A stretch of 33,589 nucleotides of DNA, taken from Candidatus Poribacteria bacterium. GTDB lineage: Bacteria > Poribacteria > WGA-4E > UBA9662. Positions 9,418 to 20,024 of this stretch are shown in pieces (the first letter of the stretch is position 1; the number at the start of each line of letters is the position of its first letter). The DNA lies in contig PAQF01000075.1 of assembly GCA_002709695.1 (NCBI GenBank), positions 1 to 33,589 on the forward strand. Direction: 5' to 3'. The notes under the pieces were generated by a model. The model was given only the letters and a program-made list of their open reading frames with translations, was not told the origin of the DNA and ran no database searches. The position numbers and the translations under genes were made by a program.

Positions 9418-11325
9418 TTGAATGTTAAGGAGACTCCCATAGTATCCCAGAGACAAGATGAATTCGGTCAAATCCCAACCTCTCGTTTTATTCTCCGTGT
9501 TTTAATTTTTGGTTCTCTCCTAATTGCGTTGAATTGCTACTGGATTATTTCGGCAGAAAACCGTGTCGTGTGGGAACTCACCGATTTTTCTGTTTTTCCC
9601 ACTGTCCTCTTTACACTCTTCGTCTTAGCTGGTGTTAACCTGTTGCTGAAACGATCATTCAAAAACCTTGCCTTCCGCGATTCTGAAATTGCGACTTCAT
9701 ATATTATGGTTTCTGTAGCTACCGCCTTGGCTGGGCACGACATTATCCGTCAACTGGTCCCGTTAATGGCCAATCCGTTTTGGTATGCTACACCTGAAAA
9801 TGAGTGGGAAGAACTTTTCTTTCGCTATCTACCAACTTGGTTGACTGTTCCAAATAGACGTGTGCTACAGGGGTATTTTGAGGGGGATGTGAGCTTTTGG
9901 CAAGTGCAATACATTTCCGCTTGGCTAATTCCTATATTGGCTTGGACGGGTTTTGTGGCTTTGTTATTGTTTGTCATGTTGTGCATTAATATTGTGATAC
10001 GAAAACAGTGGGTTGAACATGAGAAACTCAGTTACCCTCTGACTGTGATGCCTGTTGAAGTGATTGCTAATACGTCTAAACTTTTTTCCAATAAACTTAT
10101 CTGGCTTGGATTTATAATTGCCTTTGCTCTTGAAGTCATCGCTGGACTTAATTATCTTTTCCCGTCTATCCCATCGCTAAAAATCAAGTACATAGTTCCT
10201 ACTGCCATGAGACCGTGGAATGCAATGAATTGGGGGTTTGCTATTTATGTCTACCCGTTTGCTATCGGGTTGGGTTATTTGATGCCGCTAGACCTTTCGT
10301 TATCTCTTTGGTTTTTTTTGCTGACATGGAAATTGCAACCGGTTGTTTTGACTACGCTTGGGTTGACAACAGCAGTAGGTATGCTAAATGAACAGCGTTC
10401 TGGCGCGTGGATTGGTATTGGAGTTATTGCGTTATGGACTAGTCGGAAACACATAATCAGTGTCATTGGAGGTTTGTTTGGTAAGAAAACGGATGATGGA
10501 ATTTACTATTTAGCCGTATTTGGAATGATTTTCGGCGTAATCATCATGGTACTGTTTTGGTATAAAGCCGGTCTCTCACCGTGGGTTGCCGCCAGTTATT
10601 TTGCTATCTATTTTATTTTATGTATTGGAATGACTCGAATGCGTGCAGAACTTGGTCCGCCAACACATGAGCTGCATAATGCTCACCCGGATCGTATTAT
10701 GGTAGGTTTTTTAGGAACGAGAACTATTGGTGCTGCGAATTTAGCCAACACAACGCTCTTGTCTTGGCTCGCTTATGGTTATCGTTGCCATCCTATGCCA
10801 CATCAACTTGAAGGGTTCAAGATTGGATCTCACTTTGACGTTCGTCATAACCGACTGGTGATAGCGATAATTATTGCTTCAATTGTTGGTGCTTTTTTGT
10901 CAATTTTGCTTCATGTTTCCCTATATCATAGATTTCAATTTGCTAGGTGGGGTATTGGGGAATTCAATCATCTGAGAAGTCGGATTCTATTTCCTACAGG
11001 TCCAAATTTTCAAGTTATGCAACAAGTAGGAATTGGTTTCTTCGTTACGGCTATTCTTACTGTATTGAAGCGTAGGTTTATATGGTGGCCTTTTTACCCT
11101 GTTGGATATGCCGTGGGCAAAGGTTGGGCGATGACATGGTTATGGTTTTCAATTTTCTTGGGGTGGCTGTTTAAACGACTTCTTTTCGCTGGTGGAGGGG
11201 TCAAATATTATCGGATGATGTTGCCACTTTTTTTGGGGTTTATTTTCGGCCAATTTGCAGCGGGCAGTCTTTGGAGTCTTCTTGGGATTATACTCGGTAA
11301 GAACGTGTATACGATGTTCCCATAA
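9418..11325 (+). CDS. DUF6785/DUF6784-type polytopic membrane protein
   Basis: 635 residues with about twelve to fourteen hydrophobic segments; soluble stretches include MTRMRAELGPPTHELHNAHP near residue 405. This motif and the length fit the large uncharacterised DUF6785/DUF6784 membrane family, which I recall from Poribacteria, Planctomycetes and similar lineages. A transport or polymer-handling role is only a guess. The start is ambiguous. Stops lie directly before the TTG at 9418, and no ATG occurs in frame until about residue 97. A strong AAGGAG (about 9427-9432) lies downstream of that TTG and points at an in-frame ATA near 9439. The true N-terminus may therefore be seven residues shorter. 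The gene appears to be monocistronic. Confidence 0.75.
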   Translation: MNVKETPIVSQRQDEFGQIPTSRFILRVLIFGSLLIALNCYWIISAENRVVWELTDFSVFPTVLFTLFVLAGVNLLLKRSFKNLAFRDSEIATSYIMVSVATALAGHDIIRQLVPLMANPFWYATPENEWEELFFRYLPTWLTVPNRRVLQGYFEGDVSFWQVQYISAWLIPILAWTGFVALLLFVMLCINIVIRKQWVEHEKLSYPLTVMPVEVIANTSKLFSNKLIWLGFIIAFALEVIAGLNYLFPSIPSLKIKYIVPTAMRPWNAMNWGFAIYVYPFAIGLGYLMPLDLSLSLWFFLLTWKLQPVVLTTLGLTTAVGMLNEQRSGAWIGIGVIALWTSRKHIISVIGGLFGKKTDDGIYYLAVFGMIFGVIIMVLFWYKAGLSPWVAASYFAIYFILCIGMTRMRAELGPPTHELHNAHPDRIMVGFLGTRTIGAANLANTTLLSWLAYGYRCHPMPHQLEGFKIGSHFDVRHNRLVIAIIIASIVGAFLSILLHVSLYHRFQFARWGIGEFNHLRSRILFPTGPNFQVMQQVGIGFFVTAILTVLKRRFIWWPFYPVGYAVGKGWAMTWLWFSIFLGWLFKRLLFAGGGVKYYRMMLPLFLGFIFGQFAAGSLWSLLGIILGKNVYTMFP

Positions 11326-11519: not shown

Positions 11520-13079
11520 GTGAGCTTCAAGGTTTTTTCGTTAATAATTGTAATTTTGTTGTTGGGATTTGCCGTCGATATTGTGATTGGAGACACGCTG
11601 ATATTCGGGCGTGGAGGCGATTCGGTTGGTCTTGATCCTGCTCATGAAGAGGATGGTGAATCCTTTAAAGTTTGTGAGAATATCTACGATACCTTAGTTC
11701 AGTATGCAGAAGATAGTACCGAGATTCAGCCGGCTTTGGCGGAGTCTTGGGAGACTTCTGCAGATGGCTTGATTTGGAAGTTCCATCTTCGCCGTGGCGT
11801 TAAATTTCATGATGATACAGATTTTAATGCCGAGGCCGTTTTGTTTTCACTTAATCGTCAACATCAAAGCCAGCACCCGTTTCACAAAGTTGGCGGTCCT
11901 TATATTTATTGGACGGACAGTGGTTTGGCTGAAGTCGTTGACCAAATTTCGGCTGAAGATACATACACTGTTCGGATTGTACTTAAGAGTTCTTATGCTC
12001 CTTTTATTTATGCGTTAGCCATGCCGCCGTTTTCTATTGTAAGTCCAACTGCTGCTCGTAAGTGGCGAGAAGATTTTACCAATCATCCAGTTGGCACCGG
12101 TGCCTTTAAATTCGTGCGATGGGATCGAAACGATAAAGTGGTTCTACAAGCTAATCAGGACTACTGGGCTGGCCGACCCAAGATAGATCAGCTCATCTTT
12201 CGTTCGATACCAGATAATTCGGTTCGGTTATTGGAACTTCAAAACGGCAGTATTCAAGCTATGGAGTTTCCCAATCCCGATGATCTGGTCATTATCCGCC
12301 GTGACCCCAACTTACAGGTGATTGAGCAACCAGGAATGAATGTTGGGTATCTGGCCATGAATTTTGATAAACCTCCCTTTGATAATCATCAGATACGGTT
12401 GGCTATTAATCATGCTATAAACAAGAATGATATTATTGATCAATTGTATCAAGGCATGGGCGTTCCAGCTAAGAATCCGATTCCTCCAACAATGTGGAGT
12501 TATGATGAGACCACTACTGACTATTCTTATGATCCGGAGTTATCTAAGAAACTATTGACTGCTGCAGGATATGCGAATGGCTTTGAAACCGAGTTGTGGG
12601 CGTTGCCGGTTCCGCGACCTTATATACCGGATGGTAATGCACTAGCAGTAGCTATTCAATCTGACCTTCGCCGTGTGGGTATTGAAACTAAAATTGTGAC
12701 TTATGATTGGGGAACGTACTTAGAGAAAACTAAGAATGGTGATCATACTATGGCGATGTTGGGGTGGTCGGCGGATTTTGCCGATCCGGACAATTTTTTT
12801 TATTATTTACTGAGCAAAAATTCGGCTAGAAAGCCAGCAGGAAATATCGCTTTTTATAGAAGCGAAGAGATGCAGGAGATTTTGGATCAGGCTCGTTCGA
12901 CCACAGATTTAGCAATACGAACTAAACTCTATAAGAGGGCCCAGTCGTTATTCAATCGCGATCTGCCTTGGGTGCCTCTTGCGCATGCTAAGCAGATGCT
13001 AATTATTCATAAAAGCGTTAAGAATGTGAAACTCCATTCTACAACATTCAAGTATTTTCGGCGGATTTTTCTTGGTTAA
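11520..13079 (+). CDS. Peptide/oligosaccharide ABC transporter substrate-binding protein (family 5)
   Basis: 519 residues of the DppA/OppA-type SBP family 5. An N-terminal signal peptide (FSLIIVILLLGFAVDIVIG) leads into TLIFGRGGDSVGLDPAHEED. Family landmarks follow: ALAESWETSADGLIWKFHLR with GVKFHDD, then HPVGTGAFKFVRWDRND, DPDNFFYYLLSKNSA and a final region ending RDLPWVPLAH. It captures peptides or short oligosaccharides in the periplasm and hands them to the permeases. There is no lipobox cysteine, so it is soluble rather than a lipoprotein. The GTG start has AAGGA about 12 nt upstream. It is the first gene of a long run, separated from its permeases by a LamG gene. Confidence 0.9.
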   Translation: MSFKVFSLIIVILLLGFAVDIVIGDTLIFGRGGDSVGLDPAHEEDGESFKVCENIYDTLVQYAEDSTEIQPALAESWETSADGLIWKFHLRRGVKFHDDTDFNAEAVLFSLNRQHQSQHPFHKVGGPYIYWTDSGLAEVVDQISAEDTYTVRIVLKSSYAPFIYALAMPPFSIVSPTAARKWREDFTNHPVGTGAFKFVRWDRNDKVVLQANQDYWAGRPKIDQLIFRSIPDNSVRLLELQNGSIQAMEFPNPDDLVIIRRDPNLQVIEQPGMNVGYLAMNFDKPPFDNHQIRLAINHAINKNDIIDQLYQGMGVPAKNPIPPTMWSYDETTTDYSYDPELSKKLLTAAGYANGFETELWALPVPRPYIPDGNALAVAIQSDLRRVGIETKIVTYDWGTYLEKTKNGDHTMAMLGWSADFADPDNFFYYLLSKNSARKPAGNIAFYRSEEMQEILDQARSTTDLAIRTKLYKRAQSLFNRDLPWVPLAHAKQMLIIHKSVKNVKLHSTTFKYFRRIFLG

Positions 13080-13114
13080 CGGTTAACTAAGTAGAAGATG
13101 AAAGGAGATGTTAG

Positions 13115-13915
13115 ATGACAATAAGAAACTGGATGAAAGACATAATAGTTCCTATCTTGACTTTGATGTTGTTGTCAAGTCTGTTTCTGTCTACTGAAGC
13201 CGCAATTGATAAAGCCTCGATTGTTGGGATTTGGTTGTTTGACGAAGGTAGCGGTAATAAAGTAAAAGATTCATCTGATAACGGGAATCATGGTAACTTG
13301 GTCAGTAAACCGGAATGGGACAATGATGGTAAATTTGGCAAAGCATTATCATTTGAGACAGCTAAAAGTAGTTATGCGCTTGTTCCTTTATCCCATTCTA
13401 ATTCGATAACTGTAGCTGCTTGGGCCAAGTATACAGCTCTACCAACTGGTAATATTGGGTTGTTCCACGCGCAGGCGTCTGAGGACCAAGGTGGCAATCC
13501 GAATACCAAGGTTGTTGGTATCTGGGTTGAAAATTCGAAAATGTTGTGGGGACGTTTAATTGGGCCCGACAATGCTAAGAAAAATTTCCCTAAAACTAAA
13601 GCGTTGGATGCCAAGAAGTGGTATCATATTGCGGTAACTGCCGATGCTAAAACAAAGAAAGGTAAGCAGTATGTAGATGGGGAACTCGTTAGTGAAATTG
13701 ACTATACGGGCAAACTGGGAGATTTTGCCTTTGCTAAAATTGGTCGGCAGGGAACGGAAACTTGGGAAGGCTCAATTGATGAAGTTGCTGTTTTTAATCA
13801 GCCACTGGCTAAAGCTGATATTGAGAAAGTGATGCAAGGTTTGGAAACGGTGCTTGCCGTATCGTTTGAGAGAAAACTTACTTCCATCTGGTCACGTATT
13901 AAAATTGCTGATTAA
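13115..13915 (+). CDS. Secreted LamG (concanavalin-like) domain protein
   Basis: 266 residues: a signal peptide (ILTLMLLSSLFLSTEAA), then one LamG/Laminin_G_3 domain. Landmarks are GIWLFDEGSGNKVKDSSDNG, FGKALSFETAKSSYALVPLS, WYHIAVTADAKTKKGKQYVD and GSIDEVAVFNQPLAKADIE. The fold binds carbohydrates or extracellular matrix in other proteins. It lies between the binding protein and the permeases of a family 5 ABC importer, with AAGGAG 6 nt before its ATG. It could present or bind the polymer whose fragments the importer takes up (inference). The C-terminus RKLTSIWSRIK resembles that of the LamG pseudogene at 5967 (AKLSLVWGAIK), a shared tail beyond the domain. Confidence 0.88.
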   Translation: MTIRNWMKDIIVPILTLMLLSSLFLSTEAAIDKASIVGIWLFDEGSGNKVKDSSDNGNHGNLVSKPEWDNDGKFGKALSFETAKSSYALVPLSHSNSITVAAWAKYTALPTGNIGLFHAQASEDQGGNPNTKVVGIWVENSKMLWGRLIGPDNAKKNFPKTKALDAKKWYHIAVTADAKTKKGKQYVDGELVSEIDYTGKLGDFAFAKIGRQGTETWEGSIDEVAVFNQPLAKADIEKVMQGLETVLAVSFERKLTSIWSRIKIAD

Positions 13916-13952
13916 TCAACCGGTGATTCTAAACCTGCTAGGGATTTAATGT

Positions 13953-14975
13953 TTGCTTGTATATATTTTTCAGCGCTTATTTTCAATTTTGTTTTCTCTG
14001 TTTGGTGTGTCGCTTCTAGTGTTTTTTATGGTTCATTTAATTCCGGGTGATGCGGCATTGGCAATTTTGGGCGAACGAGCAAGTGAGGGGTCACTAGCAA
14101 AATTACGTCAAGAGATGGGACTGAATCTCCCCCTCTATCAGCAATATGGAAAATATTTGTGGGATCTGATACACTTTAATCTTGGTCGGTCATTTCGAAC
14201 CAACCAGCTAGTCGTTGATGATTTGGTACGTTATTTTCCGGCAACGGTTGAATTAACTCTGGCCTCCATGATATTTGCTGTTTTTTTTGGTATTAGTGCG
14301 GGGGTATTGGCTGCCGTTAATCGAGGGAAGTTTTGGGATTATACAGCAATGTTTGGGTCTTTAGCTGGGATTTCGATGCCGATATTTTGGCTTGGTTTGA
14401 TGTTGATCCTGTTATTTTCTTACTTATTGCCGATTTTTCCCAGTTCTCAGCGGATTGATACGGTGCTTGATCTGCAGATTCAGCACCGTACAAATTTCTA
14501 TTTGATTGATACTTTGATAGCAGGTCATTTTGAGGCATTCGGAAATGCTTTATGGCACTTGATTTTGCCTGCGATAACGTTAGGGACTATTCCGCTAGCC
14601 ATTATCGCGCGGATAACGAGATCTAGCCTGCTTGAGATATTGAATCAGCAGTATATTACTACGGCTCATGCTAAAGGGTTACGTTACTCTGTTGTAATTT
14701 TGAAACACGCGTTGAAAAACAGTATGATTCCGGTTTTGACCGTTATCGGTCTTGAATTCGGGTATTTGCTTGGTGGCGCTATCTTGACGGAGCATATTTT
14801 TTCTTGGCCAGGACTCGGTTCTTGGTTGTATGCGGCGGTTAGCGCACGGGATATTCGTCCGATTCAGGGTGGGGTGTTGTTTGTAGCCAGTATTTTCATG
14901 GTGGTTAACTTGGTTGTTGATTTGCTCTATGTTTATTTTAATCCGCAGATACGAATTGCAAATCAGGTGGTATGA
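13953..14975 (+). CDS. ABC transporter permease, DppB/OppB type
   Basis: 340 residues with the six-helix layout of DppB-type permeases. It opens LVYIFQRLFSILFSLFGVSL and has PGDAALAILGERAS in the first periplasmic segment. The EAA loop that contacts the ATPase reads HAKGLRYSVVILKHALKNSM (about residue 240). It ends with the family's typical VNLVVDLLYVYFNPQIR. It forms the inner-membrane channel with the next gene, which it overlaps by 4 bp. The TTG start is favoured because GGGA lies about 9 nt upstream and the first transmembrane helix begins at once. Confidence 0.93.
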   Translation: MLVYIFQRLFSILFSLFGVSLLVFFMVHLIPGDAALAILGERASEGSLAKLRQEMGLNLPLYQQYGKYLWDLIHFNLGRSFRTNQLVVDDLVRYFPATVELTLASMIFAVFFGISAGVLAAVNRGKFWDYTAMFGSLAGISMPIFWLGLMLILLFSYLLPIFPSSQRIDTVLDLQIQHRTNFYLIDTLIAGHFEAFGNALWHLILPAITLGTIPLAIIARITRSSLLEILNQQYITTAHAKGLRYSVVILKHALKNSMIPVLTVIGLEFGYLLGGAILTEHIFSWPGLGSWLYAAVSARDIRPIQGGVLFVASIFMVVNLVVDLLYVYFNPQIRIANQVV

Positions 14976-15814
14976 GCAATCAACGTCCGCCTTTTTGGCG
15001 TCGTTTGTTTCGCCAGAAGTCAGCTGCAATTGGTGCCAGTATTGTTTTGTTTTTTGTTTTTACTGCTGTTTTGGCGCCGGTAATTGCAACGTATGACCCA
15101 CGTCAAGCTGATATAAGTTCGCGTCTTCAAGGTTGTTCGGTCAGCCATTTTTTTGGTACTGATAAGGTCGGTCGAGATGTTTTCAGTCGTATTGTTTATG
15201 GCTCTCGGATTTCGATTAAGGTAGGTTTAATTGCCATGACCTTTTCTCTATCTTTCGGTATGTTTTTTGGTACAATTGCTGGTTATTATGGTGGACGATT
15301 AGAAAACGCGATTATGCGTTTGATGGATATGATGCTGGCTATGCCAAGCATCTTATTGGCTATGGTGATTGTTACCATTTTGGGACAGAGCTTGACAAAT
15401 GCTATTATTGCTGTTTCTATTGTCTATATTCCGCAATATGCGAGAATTTTGCGAGGATCGGTATTGGATGTGCGTGAACAGGATTACGTTATGGCGACGA
15501 AAGCAATTGGGGCTAGCGATTTCTGGATTTTGAAGAGAGCAATTTTGCCCAATTGTTTGGCTCCCTTAATTGTACAGGCAACACTTGGTGTTGGGTCCGC
15601 GATCTTGGATGCAGCTGGACTTAGTTTTCTTGGTCTTGGTGCGGAGGTTGGTGAGCCGGAATGGGGGGCGATGTTAAATGAAAATCGTTCTCTAATTCGT
15701 ATCGCCCCGTGGGCGGTGATGATGCCGGGAATTGCTATTTTTTTAACGGTTTTGGGTTTTAACCTGTTAGGTGATGCACTTCGTGATGTTCTGGATCCAA
15801 AACTTGAAACTTAG
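14972..15814 (+). CDS. ABC transporter permease, DppC/OppC type
   Basis: 280 residues. The N-terminal PPFWRRLFRQKSAAIGASIV, then DPRQADISSRLQGCSVSHFF and GTDKVGRDVFSRIVYGSRIS are diagnostic for DppC/OppC. The EAA loop is ATKAIGASDFWILKRAILPN, and the end NLLGDALRDVLDPKL is typical. It pairs with the DppB-type permease and its ATG overlaps that gene's stop (ATGA). No DppD/DppF ATPase gene follows: the next gene is a LysM protein. The energising subunits must come from elsewhere in the genome. Confidence 0.95.
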   Translation: MSNQRPPFWRRLFRQKSAAIGASIVLFFVFTAVLAPVIATYDPRQADISSRLQGCSVSHFFGTDKVGRDVFSRIVYGSRISIKVGLIAMTFSLSFGMFFGTIAGYYGGRLENAIMRLMDMMLAMPSILLAMVIVTILGQSLTNAIIAVSIVYIPQYARILRGSVLDVREQDYVMATKAIGASDFWILKRAILPNCLAPLIVQATLGVGSAILDAAGLSFLGLGAEVGEPEWGAMLNENRSLIRIAPWAVMMPGIAIFLTVLGFNLLGDALRDVLDPKLET

Positions 15815-15841: not shown

Positions 15842-17797
15842 TTGAAAACATCAATAACATCTGTTATTTTGGTAGTCTTAGTTAGTTTTTTCATAACACC
15901 TTTAATTCCTGCAGAGATTACGCCAAAAGATTCGAAAGAGCTCAATGAATCAACTAGGGTTATTATGATCAAACCTGGGCAGACATTGGCTGATTTAGCA
16001 CTGGAATATTTTGGTGATCGAAAAAAGTATAAGCAATTTTTAAAGTACAATATTATCACAGATATTAACTCGGTGAAACCGGGTGATATGATACGAGTGC
16101 CTGTACTTCCGTCGGCAGAACTTCAGGACCAAGAGTTTCAATCTTTGGCTTCTGGATCATCACCTAACATTACTCATAGGCGTGTTAGTGGTGTAACTGA
16201 AATTATCACTGTGCAGGTGGGTGAGACGTTGGTGGATTTGGCACAGAAATATTTTGGCGATCGAAAAAAGTATAAAAAGTTTTTGGAGTATAATGATATT
16301 GGTAACTTGAACACAATAAAGGCTGGTGATCAATTACAGGTGCCTGTTTTGGCCAATGTAGCTACTTCTGCTAAGCAAACAGAGCCGGAAGAGGTAAATC
16401 AGTCTTCGAGTTTGGCCAAGGTAGAAGCTAAACCTACTCAAAAAACGACACCTCCTGTGGTATTAGAATCATCTATGGAGGCTAGCGTTAATTCTTCTGA
16501 AAACATTCTTCAAGAGATAAGGGAAATAAGGCAGGCTCTTAGGAATTTGGACTCTTCTGGCTCCACAGCAGAGACGCTGACAGAGACAGTTGAAGAGGTT
16601 CTACCTCCAGCAGACATCAGGGTTTTTGATGTGCCGAATGATGCAGGAAAAGGGCTTAACACTAAGGGGGCTACCAGCAAATTTAAAAAGGGTAATATAG
16701 TTGTTACATGGACTAAATCTGACAGTAGTGCTGTCATTGGCTACCACATTTTTCGAAAGCAACTGGATGGAGAGTTTGAGCAAGTAACAAAAAAACCGGT
16801 TAAAGCGGGCGAAGCCAAAAAGAATGTCTTGGCTATTTTACCGAGTTATCATAGGGAATTTTCGCCTAGTGATTATACAAGCCTTGGTTTTTTTGCTGAT
16901 AAGGCTGAAACCAATATTCCATACATTTACAAGGTTGCAGCTGTTGGAGAGGCAGGTATCGTCTCAGAATCTGTTGAATCTGGAGAAGTTAAAGCTGTTG
17001 GTAACCTGATTGCGACGACGAAGATGCCTGAATTTCTGGGGCTTCTCTTAGTTGCGGCTGTAACATTATATTTTATTGATAAGGCTCAAAGTGGTCAGGA
17101 CATGTTTATTCGCAAAATTCCTGCTCTTGATGCTTTTGAAGAAGCCATTGGTCGTTCAGCGGAAATGGGACGTCCCGTAATGTTTATTCCAGGAAACGAT
17201 GATGTTTATAAATCTTCATCAATAGCTGCAATCAATATTTTTGAAGGTGCTGCTAATTATGCAGTGGTTATGCAGTCCCATATTATGTCACCTAATCAGG
17301 AAGCAATTGTCAACCAGGTGTTAAGTAATTCTCTTAGAAACATTTTTCTATATGCTGGAAGACCGGATTTATACGATGAATATGATGTGCATTTTGAAAC
17401 AACTGATCAACTCGCTTTTGCTTCTGCTATAGCTGGTGCTATGTATCGTGAGAACCCAGCAGCAATATTTATTCAAGGTGATTTTGGTGCGGAATCTTTG
17501 ATATTTGCAGAGAATGGTAATGCTGTTGGTGCAATTCAAATTGCAGGAACAGATAACGAGAAACAACTTCCATACTTTGTTGTAGCTTGTGATTATACCC
17601 TTTTAGGTGAAGAATTATATGCTGCAGGTGCTTATATTAAAAAGGATCCAATTCAGATCTGTACGTTGAAAGCACAGGATTTGTTGAAGCTTGCAGTGTT
17701 TGCCTGTTTAATTATAGGTTCTTTGTTGGCACTCTCTGGATCTTCCAACGGCATATTAGACTTTTTTACGCAAAAATGGTTTGAGGTAATTTCATGA
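15842..17797 (+). CDS. LysM-LysM-FN3-DUF6754 membrane protein
   Basis: 651 residues. In order: a signal or anchor segment (1-25), LysM 1 (about 40-88), LysM 2 (about 121-170), a polar linker with a short coiled coil (about 218-238, NILQEIREIRQALRNL), and a fibronectin-III-like domain (about 282-385). Then come a transmembrane helix (about 396-413), a DUF6754-type domain (about 415-605, with GRPVMFIPGNDDVYKSSSIA) and a last transmembrane helix (about 610-632). LysM domains bind the GlcNAc-containing glycan of peptidoglycan. Positive charges after the first helix (DKAQSGQDMFIRK) put DUF6754 in the cytoplasm and LysM outside. DUF6754 has no known function. Start: TTG with GGGAGG 11 nt upstream. 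It overlaps the next gene by 4 bp and heads a four-gene membrane cluster. Confidence 0.85.
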   Translation: MKTSITSVILVVLVSFFITPLIPAEITPKDSKELNESTRVIMIKPGQTLADLALEYFGDRKKYKQFLKYNIITDINSVKPGDMIRVPVLPSAELQDQEFQSLASGSSPNITHRRVSGVTEIITVQVGETLVDLAQKYFGDRKKYKKFLEYNDIGNLNTIKAGDQLQVPVLANVATSAKQTEPEEVNQSSSLAKVEAKPTQKTTPPVVLESSMEASVNSSENILQEIREIRQALRNLDSSGSTAETLTETVEEVLPPADIRVFDVPNDAGKGLNTKGATSKFKKGNIVVTWTKSDSSAVIGYHIFRKQLDGEFEQVTKKPVKAGEAKKNVLAILPSYHREFSPSDYTSLGFFADKAETNIPYIYKVAAVGEAGIVSESVESGEVKAVGNLIATTKMPEFLGLLLVAAVTLYFIDKAQSGQDMFIRKIPALDAFEEAIGRSAEMGRPVMFIPGNDDVYKSSSIAAINIFEGAANYAVVMQSHIMSPNQEAIVNQVLSNSLRNIFLYAGRPDLYDEYDVHFETTDQLAFASAIAGAMYRENPAAIFIQGDFGAESLIFAENGNAVGAIQIAGTDNEKQLPYFVVACDYTLLGEELYAAGAYIKKDPIQICTLKAQDLLKLAVFACLIIGSLLALSGSSNGILDFFTQKWFEVIS

Positions 17798-18441
17798 AGC
17801 GAACGTTACCAGTAGTTCTGTGTAGCACAATTGGTCTTCTGATGGTGTTGCAATACTTTATTCCCCACCAGTTGTCGCAAGCATTTTTTGATCGGACATT
17901 AAAGATGAACCAGATTATTTCAATCTTTGCCTTGATTACGGCGTTGGTTAGTGTTCCCCGTAGTCATATCAGAAGGATTCGTTTGAAAACTGAAAACTGG
18001 CAATATAGTATTGTCCTTCTGGTCGGTTTTTCCTTGCTTCCAATTGCTGCTATTATTGATAATGGGCTGGGTTTTTTTAAGGGAGAGATTAGAATTGACG
18101 GCGCTATTTTTGATTGGATATATGTTAATGGTCAGATACCATTGGGTAATACAGTGTTCGCTATGCTGGCGTTTTATATTACTTCAGCTGCCTATCGTGC
18201 TTTTAGGGCCCGGACTTTTGACGCGGCAATTCTTTTAACTGCTGGAATCATTGTGCTGCTGGCAAATGCTCCTCCTACAGAGATGTACATATGGAGTAAA
18301 TTTTCGGTGATCAAGGATTGGATATTGGCCGTGCCGAGTGGGGCAGCCCAGCGTGCTCTCTTGCTTGGGTTAGGGCTAGGTGCAGTTTCCCAGTCATTAC
18401 GCATTCTGCTTGGTATTGATCGTTCTTGGATGGGAGGGTAA
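17794..18441 (+). CDS. Five-to-six-helix membrane protein of the DUF6754 cluster
   Basis: 215 residues, no family recognised. Hydrophobic segments lie near residues 5-22, 38-53, 70-88, 112-132, 143-160 and 185-205. The loop between the third and fourth (GEIRIDGAIFDWIYVNGQIP) is polar and conserved-looking. It has no signal peptide apart from its first helix and no catalytic motif. The ATG overlaps the TGA of the LysM gene, and the next gene begins 10 bp after its stop, so the proteins are probably made together and may form one membrane complex. The final segment is LGIDRSWMGG. Confidence 0.75.
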   Translation: MKRTLPVVLCSTIGLLMVLQYFIPHQLSQAFFDRTLKMNQIISIFALITALVSVPRSHIRRIRLKTENWQYSIVLLVGFSLLPIAAIIDNGLGFFKGEIRIDGAIFDWIYVNGQIPLGNTVFAMLAFYITSAAYRAFRARTFDAAILLTAGIIVLLANAPPTEMYIWSKFSVIKDWILAVPSGAAQRALLLGLGLGAVSQSLRILLGIDRSWMGG

Positions 18442-18451
18442 GGGAACAATA

Positions 18452-19345
18452 ATGCTAGAACGTTTAATGACGCTTGATCGTCGAATCATTTTCTTAGCGC
18501 TACTTGTTGTTGTGACCATACCAACATTGTTGAAAGTCAGTTTTCCAATAAGTTCCATCACGCCAACTACTCAAGATGTATATGATGAAATCGATGGTCT
18601 TGAACCTGGTTCATGTGTTTGGATTGCTTTGGATTATACACCACCAGCTATGGCTGAGTTGCAACCTCAACTGTCAGCGATTTTGCATCATTGCTTTGCT
18701 AAGGACATTAAGGTTCTGGGCTTTAACCCGCTAATTGCTGAATCTGCTCCACTTGGTCTCAAAGAGTTCAGGAAAATTGGTACAGAACACAATAAAGTGG
18801 AAGGTACTGATTACGTCTATCTCGGATATAGGCCAGGTCAGTTATCTGTTATGCTTGGTTTGGCTAAGGATATGGAAACTGCGGGATATACAAAAGATAT
18901 GAATGATACTCCGCTGTCGAATCTTCCAATGATGAAAGAGGTTAGGAATTATGATGATGCGAATTTACTTATCGCCTTAGCCGCTTTTAAAACACCAGGT
19001 TATTGGGTGCAGTTCGTCGGTGATAGATTTGGTGTTAGAGTGGCTGTAGGAGTTACCAATGTGATGTATACTGCTATGTTTCCTTATATTAATTCGGGGC
19101 AACTTAAAGGGGTTTTGCCTGGCTTACAAGGTGCTGCTGAATACGAACAGCTTGTTAAAAAGGCTGGGTACTCTTCAGGTGGGCCTGCACAAGCAGGCAT
19201 GAGTATTCAGTCTATTGTACATTACGCTTTAGTGCTTCTCCTAATACTTTGCAATGTCGGCTATTTTGTCACTAGGCATAGAGAGGCGAAAGCTCTGGAA
19301 CGTAGACAAACGGAAGCCGTAAAACAATCTGTGGGGTTAGAATAG
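18452..19345 (+). CDS. Bitopic membrane protein with extracytoplasmic domain (DUF6754 cluster)
   Basis: 297 residues, family not recognised. A single helix (about 11-30, IIFLALLVVVTIPTLLKVSF) follows positive residues. A soluble domain of about 220 residues comes next (including VYDEIDGLEPGSCVWIALDY and DANLLIALAAFKTPGYWVQF). A second helix (about 255-275) is followed by a basic tail (TRHREAKALERRQ). The charge pattern puts both ends in the cytoplasm and the main domain outside, on the same side as the LysM domains. ATG at 18452 (GGGA 6 nt upstream) is chosen over a start 72 bp earlier that would lie inside the previous gene and precede the anchor helix. Confidence 0.75.
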   Translation: MLERLMTLDRRIIFLALLVVVTIPTLLKVSFPISSITPTTQDVYDEIDGLEPGSCVWIALDYTPPAMAELQPQLSAILHHCFAKDIKVLGFNPLIAESAPLGLKEFRKIGTEHNKVEGTDYVYLGYRPGQLSVMLGLAKDMETAGYTKDMNDTPLSNLPMMKEVRNYDDANLLIALAAFKTPGYWVQFVGDRFGVRVAVGVTNVMYTAMFPYINSGQLKGVLPGLQGAAEYEQLVKKAGYSSGGPAQAGMSIQSIVHYALVLLLILCNVGYFVTRHREAKALERRQTEAVKQSVGLE

Positions 19346-19346
19346 T

Positions 19347-20024
19347 ATGGAATTACTAGGGACTTGGGTTGCAGCAATTCTAACGCTATGTATTTTTAGC
19401 TTTTTGTATAAAGATAATCCAGCATATAAAGCTGCGCAAAGTCTATTTGTCGGATTGACATTGGGATATGTATTGGTAGTCAAAGTCTTGAAAGAAGGTT
19501 TCTTTGGGGTTATCAAAGACCAGTTCTTTGCAGCAGGAACTTGGAGCATCCAAGGGGATGTTGCTGCCATTGTGTCAGCGGTAATTGCCATATTGTTGGG
19601 GTTACTTTTCTTTAGCTCATATATTCCAAAATTCTCTTGGTTAGTAACTCTTGTTTTAGCTTTAACCATCGGTTGGGGATCAGGGATCGTCATATCGGCA
19701 GAACTTTCGAGTAAGGTCTATGCACAAGTAACTTCAACAATTGGAGATTTTCAGGGTTTCTTTGATAGAGATTTGTTTGCTGGCGAAAATTGGCAGAAAT
19801 CCAAATTGAATACGATCTTGATGCTTGTCGGAGTTGTTTGTACGTTAACCTATTTCTTTTTCTCTGTTGAACATAGAGGTGTACCGGGGAAGCTAGCTAA
19901 AGTTGGGATTATCTTCATTATGGTTAGTTTCGGGGCTAGTTTTGCTAACGCTGTGGCTGGACGTATTTCGCTTCTGATTGGCCGCATGACTTTTTTGTTG
20001 GGTGATTGGCTCCATTTAATTTAG
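19347..20024 (+). CDS. Six-helix membrane protein of the DUF6754 cluster
   Basis: 225 residues with six or seven hydrophobic stretches (about 4-20, 28-45, 68-88, 92-112, 152-170, 178-200 and the end). The polar loop SKVYAQVTSTIGDFQGFFDR lies between helices four and five. No family or catalytic motif is recognised. The ATG is one base after the stop of the bitopic protein, and the next gene (VOC) starts 19 bp further with its own strong ribosome-binding site. This therefore seems to be the last member of the four-gene unit. Confidence 0.72.
   Translation: MELLGTWVAAILTLCIFSFLYKDNPAYKAAQSLFVGLTLGYVLVVKVLKEGFFGVIKDQFFAAGTWSIQGDVAAIVSAVIAILLGLLFFSSYIPKFSWLVTLVLALTIGWGSGIVISAELSSKVYAQVTSTIGDFQGFFDRDLFAGENWQKSKLNTILMLVGVVCTLTYFFFSVEHRGVPGKLAKVGIIFIMVSFGASFANAVAGRISLLIGRMTFLLGDWLHLI

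Follow-up and report, generated by a model that had tools for sequence, protein, structure and literature searches.

The window, i.e. the complete stretch of 33,589 nucleotides from Candidatus Poribacteria analyzed here, contains four genes (A, B, C, and D) which are inherited together and in the same order across dozens of bacterial families. A to D make up only part of the system; two larger proteins, X2 and X3, and two small ones, X0 and X1, belong to it as well. The explanation in which we place about even confidence is that A to D constitute one inner-membrane complex working with X2 and X3, which would perform ATP-driven mechanical or transport work across the membrane. The direct observations behind this explanation are co-inheritance, gene order, the topology deduced from charge and hydrophobicity, sequence conservation, intact ATPase motifs, and the fusion of X2 with X3.

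Gene A (15842–17797, 651 amino acids), gene B (17794–18441, 215 amino acids), gene C (18452–19345, 297 amino acids), and gene D (19347–20024, 225 amino acids) are all located on the plus strand. According to the list of open reading frames, A and B overlap by 4 bp, and gaps of 10 bp and 1 bp separate B from C and C from D, respectively; the tight packing described in the sequence-only reading was thus confirmed by the coordinates. The start of gene C was set to the in-frame ATG at 18452 inside the listed open reading frame 18380–19345. Gene A starts with a TTG codon and has a GGGAGG motif upstream. Scans for promoters and terminators yielded promoters no more numerous than in shuffled sequences.

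The protein A consists of a signal-like N terminus, two LysM repeats, a linker, an FN3-like region, a transmembrane (TM) segment, the DUF6754 domain, and a second TM segment. The DUF6754 domain (17003–17740, residues 388–633) is a member of Pfam PF20539 by score (285.4 bits at a cut-off of 27, E = 4.4e-85). Similarly, LysM was assigned by score in two stretches (Pfam PF01476, 43.8 bits at a cut-off of 20.9), with the second repeat at 16205–16345 (residues 122–168) and the first at 15953–16102, the limits of the latter being approximate and based on an alignment by eye to the second repeat. For the FN3-like region, with approximate limits of 16604–16996, no hit to PF00041 was found in the window protein at E ≤ 1; an fn3 hit was obtained in 8 of 67 relatives, and the FN3-like family consensus D.PND.G...W...Y.I.R aligns there. 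Of the domain architecture proposed earlier, the LysM repeats and DUF6754 were hence verified by Pfam, and an FN3-like region is suggested by the family consensus and these relatives.

B, C, and D matched neither Pfam nor NCBIfam families at E ≤ 0.001. B and D, previously described as polytopic proteins of no recognized family, indeed have approximately six TM segments each; B carries a conserved cytosolic YRAFRAR loop and a conserved GIERSYLGG tail, and D a conserved YKDNPFYKFAEH loop. The topology was deduced from the mean net charge on either side of the TM segments in approximately 50 homologues. This placed DUF6754 in the cytosol, as had been suggested, the large domain of C outside, and both ends of C inside. 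C had been regarded as bitopic with a large extracytoplasmic domain; the domain was retained, but a TM helix is present at each end of the protein. Relatives in the PDB were found for none of A, B, and D, and for C the matches were all insignificant. AlphaFold models of C and A, generated from two-sequence input, had mean pLDDT values of 40 and 35, and profile comparisons of A with C and of B with D revealed no relatedness.

In the window genome (G000), a second ABCD cluster is located on another contig, and its A lacks LysM. Throughout the phylum, DUF6754 was detected in 82 of 85 genomes, mostly as a single copy. A single-protein search of the named genome collection returned one match only, on a contig from an isolate of Candidatus Poribacteria whose C is 86% identical. 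Two further genes of the window have paralogues near the second cluster (L006) of the same genome: a 635-amino-acid membrane protein (9418–11325; L006:16331–18262) and a LamG-like protein (13115–13915; L006:3726–4475). These may be just expanded families of the phylum. Genes of a peptide-type ABC transporter (SBP_bac_5 and two permeases, 11520–15814) lie immediately upstream of the window cluster, and similar genes were seen near ABCD in L069, L071, L117, and L091.

Hidden Markov models were seeded from both window-genome clusters and refined by iteration over 60 loci, 40 outside the phylum and 20 inside. Contiguous A-B-C-D on one strand was found in 38 of the 40 outside loci and in 19 of the 20 inside, the single non-contiguous locus inside the phylum being situated at a contig end. 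DUF6754 in unrelated neighborhoods, which would have spoken against a dedicated system, was looked for and not encountered as a pattern. The two exceptions outside the phylum are an orphan A (L041) and an A adjoining X3 (L045). Together with three carriers of A for which X2 or X3 was not detected (G091, G141, and G160), these orphan genes count against a complex powered by X2 and X3.

Co-occurrence was assessed in 289 genomes, 204 outside the phylum and 85 inside. Among the 204, A was present in 51 genomes from 45 families. C was likewise present in 51 of them (133 of all 289), 50 in common with A, and D in 53 (135 of all 289), including 51 of the 51 A genomes; the search for partners that occur apart from DUF6754 thus did not overturn the proposed linkage. 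X3 was found in 49 of the 204 genomes, 49 of 49 being A genomes, and X2-type MutL proteins in 48 of the 51 A genomes, some of the X2 and X3 matches counted being weak or fragmentary (e.g., G114, G143, and G284). Fisher's exact p values for A with C, X3, and X2 were 2e-45, 3e-45, and 3e-35, respectively (204 genomes, uncorrected for phylogeny). The sample appears to be spread thinly over many phyla, because the phylum of G220 is represented by only four genomes, three of them with DUF6754. None of 14 model-organism control genomes contained DUF6754 above the cut-off, and no DUF6754 was found in viral contigs and plasmids.

For 69 complete modules, the trees of A, B, C, and D agree, with mirror-tree correlations of r = 0.77–0.83, to which shared species history also contributes. 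In each of the four trees, the window copy groups with the same sister, and several tandem ABCD copies lie closer to copies of other genomes than to one another. Since homologues of each of the four genes, arranged in this order, exist in dozens of bacterial families, the window cluster goes beyond chance; chance or mere shared transcription was ruled out by the co-occurrence and by a rearranged operon (X1-A-B-C-D-X2-X3) in L149. Omp85 was considered as a marker for an outer membrane and discarded, as it occurs in 274 of the 289 genomes and does not discriminate; G143 and G284, which carry divergent DUF6754, lack it. In L145:10211–15198, from a genome in which Omp85 was not detected, a divergent C has a long N terminus of DWLRG-type repeats, and divergent C, D, and an X2-like gene form one run. 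Three additional tandem copies of C follow the ABCD module at L055:3763–6468 (minus strand, G204).

Clustering of neighboring genes revealed X0, X1, X2, and X3 as recurrent neighbors of ABCD. The full operon X0-X1-X2-X3-A-B-C-D is present in L078, L113, and L117, and in L107 without X0. X0 (approximately 150 amino acids) and X1 (approximately 130 amino acids) are both encoded upstream of X2. The sequence-only reading of a dedicated membrane system was accordingly borne out with regard to co-inheritance and contiguity; its restriction to four genes was not. Within the Poribacteria, X2 and X3 mostly lie apart from ABCD, which speaks against a complex powered by this pair; in the window genome, X2 is encoded at G000:C17:76847–78643, and X3 is situated on contig C48, at its end. 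The copy numbers of A, C, X2, and X3 were 6/5/1/1 in G218, 4/4/1/1 in G213 and G241, 3/3/1/1 in G220, and 2/2/1/1 in the window genome. One X2/X3 pair thus appears to serve several ABCD modules, because single X2 and X3 genes accompany two to six copies of A.

X2 has approximately 600 amino acids, and its MutL domain (PF13941) scored above the gathering cut-off (420.6 bits in L080, 422.4 bits in the window genome). The motifs DCGSTTTKA, DIGGATTD, and GSGGVL are conserved and the ASKHA-type motifs intact, so that by sequence X2 is an ATPase of the ASKHA type and of the GlmL/MutL superfamily. X3 (approximately 375 amino acids) shows a weak resemblance of its N-terminal part to the barrel-sandwich domain RnfC_N (PF13375, 20.1 bits, below the cut-off of 25.6) and to NusG/SPT5 at E of about 0.1, with no family above its cut-off in the remainder of the protein; it may be a cytosolic barrel-sandwich or KOW-like protein and is a putative adaptor. 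Fusions of X2 with X3 occur as paralogues encoded by single open reading frames of 952–1015 amino acids (L138:9132–12089, L139:894–3932, L140:9237–12095, and L141:8878–11925), which do not adjoin ABCD genes. At L051:11926–13720 (minus strand, G212), X2 is split into two open reading frames by a stop codon or frameshift, the sole such case among linked X2 genes.

Known members of the GlmL family are accessory proteins of B12 mutases and not transport motors, which weighs against the favored explanation, and a role as reactivase or chaperone has been proposed for GlmL relatives. It is conceivable, though unlikely in our judgment, that X2 and X3 act in this manner and repair ABCD, which would then be a membrane enzyme or channel. 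The NCBIfam entries nearest to X2 would fit such a role: the methylaspartate mutase accessory protein GlmL (NF040745, 226.9 bits, equivalog cut-off 475) and the GlmL-related ornithine degradation protein (NF040744, 205.5 bits, cut-off 600), with X2 scoring below both cut-offs. Shorter GlmL-like relatives of 450–510 amino acids (L155, L156, and L157) point in the same direction, an OraS/OraE-like aminomutase gene pair, read from sequence, adjoining those of L155 and L157; this is a known setting of the superfamily, distinct from that of ABCD. The many near-invariant charged residues of DUF6754, seen in alignment columns across 50 homologues, might also be those of an active site. The neighborhoods argue otherwise. 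Unlike GlmL, the X2 of approximately 600 amino acids accompanies X3 and ABCD rather than a B12 mutase, and neither cofactor-binding families nor mutase genes are recurrent neighbors of ABCD-linked X2. Furthermore, genomes without ABCD also lack X3 and X2, with the exception of G170 (85% completeness), which has a full-score X2 and D and no A. MutL without A was recorded in seven genomes outside the phylum, six of them low-scoring; the proteins from two of these six (L155 and L156) are GlmL-like and 450–460 amino acids long.

The conservation pattern differs between the two sides of the membrane. Mean conservation of DUF6754 was 70%, and the cytosolic loops of B and D (0.48–0.83) were mostly more conserved than the outside loops (0.26–0.48). 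The length of the outer head of A varies from practically zero to approximately 700 amino acids. This pattern is consistent with an engine that is conserved in the cytosol and carries outward heads that vary. Of the 67 A proteins, 3 have LysM, namely those of family f1 as read from the sequences (the window, the sister species L071, and L070). From this distribution, LysM is a local decoration and not general to the A family, and the earlier proposal that LysM anchors the complex to peptidoglycan does not hold as a general feature.

The same rarity of LysM weakens a second alternative, in which ABCD would be a static scaffold across the envelope, tying an actin-like X2 through the membrane to the wall and organizing the envelope, with no substrate moved. 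Membership of X2 in the ASKHA fold family, a weak match to MreB-like_C below its threshold (20.3 bits, cut-off 27.8), and the LysM and FN3-like outer parts of the window copy are in favor of this scaffold, but X2 groups with MutL and not with MreB, FtsA, or PilM, and we consider it rather unlikely. The variable heads, and the presence of several modules per genome with one cytosolic pair, could also be those of a signaling receptor which senses the wall or the surroundings and reports from its cytosolic face via X2 and X3. Such a receptor is improbable given the neighborhoods of ABCD, in which no kinase, cyclase, or regulator recurs.

A role in wall growth or division had been suggested by two genes downstream of the window cluster, DUF368 (undecaprenyl-phosphate translocase-like) and ZapA. 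Both genes were confirmed at this position. The link was rejected because these neighbors recur solely in the sister species of the same genus (2 of 100 loci including the window), and genes for the wall or for division do not recur in other ABCD neighborhoods; a wall growth or division module is thus very improbable. Other genes were found in proximity at several loci. Genes for gcvT, gcvH, and gcvP subunits, read from sequence, adjoin the X0-to-D operon or its X2/X3 part in L113, L117, L078, L080, L053, L091, L124, and L128, with a lipoate-ligase-like gene nearby in L113, L080, and L128. Similarly, gapA-pgk, in most cases accompanied by tpiA and a SecG-like gene, was read near ABCD or X0–X3 in L042, L060, L068, L127, L135, and L136, which include deep members of the phylum. 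The proximity of glycine-cleavage (eight loci) and gap-pgk-tpi genes (six loci) may reflect an old neighborhood, not a functional link. Anti-phage defence was discarded, as PADLOC models matched none of A to D, X2, and X3 at E ≤ 0.01.

The favored explanation, an ATP-driven inner-membrane complex, can be outlined as follows. A, B, C, and D would assemble physically into one complex with a conserved cytosolic face, formed by DUF6754 and the conserved loops of B and D. The outward parts, chiefly the head of A, would vary and engage the envelope; judging from the domain match, LysM in the window copy would bind peptidoglycan. X2 is predicted to hydrolyze ATP and, via X3, to drive or reset the ABCD core, which would thereby perform work across the membrane, be it mechanical or transport; a single X2/X3 pair could energize several modules.

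Known systems offer partial parallels. In PilM-PilN-PilO-PilP and in MreB/FtsA scaffolds, a cytosolic ATPase of actin-like fold is linked to inner-membrane proteins whose domains lie outside. The likeness to ABCD and X2 would be one of analogy; family matches to PilM, PilN, PilO, or PilP were absent among the scanned proteins, and no pilus gene was noticed among the recurrent neighbors. In ECF-type transporters, several membrane modules share an energizing module. This parallel is again an analogy, as ABCD and X2 have neither an ABC ATPase nor a sequence relation to that type. The Pfam entry PF20539 holds the DUF6754 domain alone, with no link to B, C, D, or X2/X3. The open-access papers searched contained no mention of DUF6754, PF20539, or PF13941, and searches around GlmL gave nothing relevant. 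COGNAT (PMC5700660), which was also consulted, deals with a different complex. The system therefore seems undescribed in the open-access papers searched.

As a tentative and less probable extension, ABCD with X2 and X3 could represent a new class of energized envelope machine, in which a GlmL-like ASKHA ATPase and a dedicated adaptor would drive interchangeable four-protein modules whose heads differ from copy to copy. The system is kept together in approximately one in four of the genomes sampled outside the phylum, often in multiple copies, and is thus probably important to the cells that carry it. Divergent GlmL-like proteins gain a context away from B12 mutases, and DUF6754 ceases to be an orphan domain: with its link to an adaptor and to an ATPase of a named superfamily, it becomes part of a testable system.
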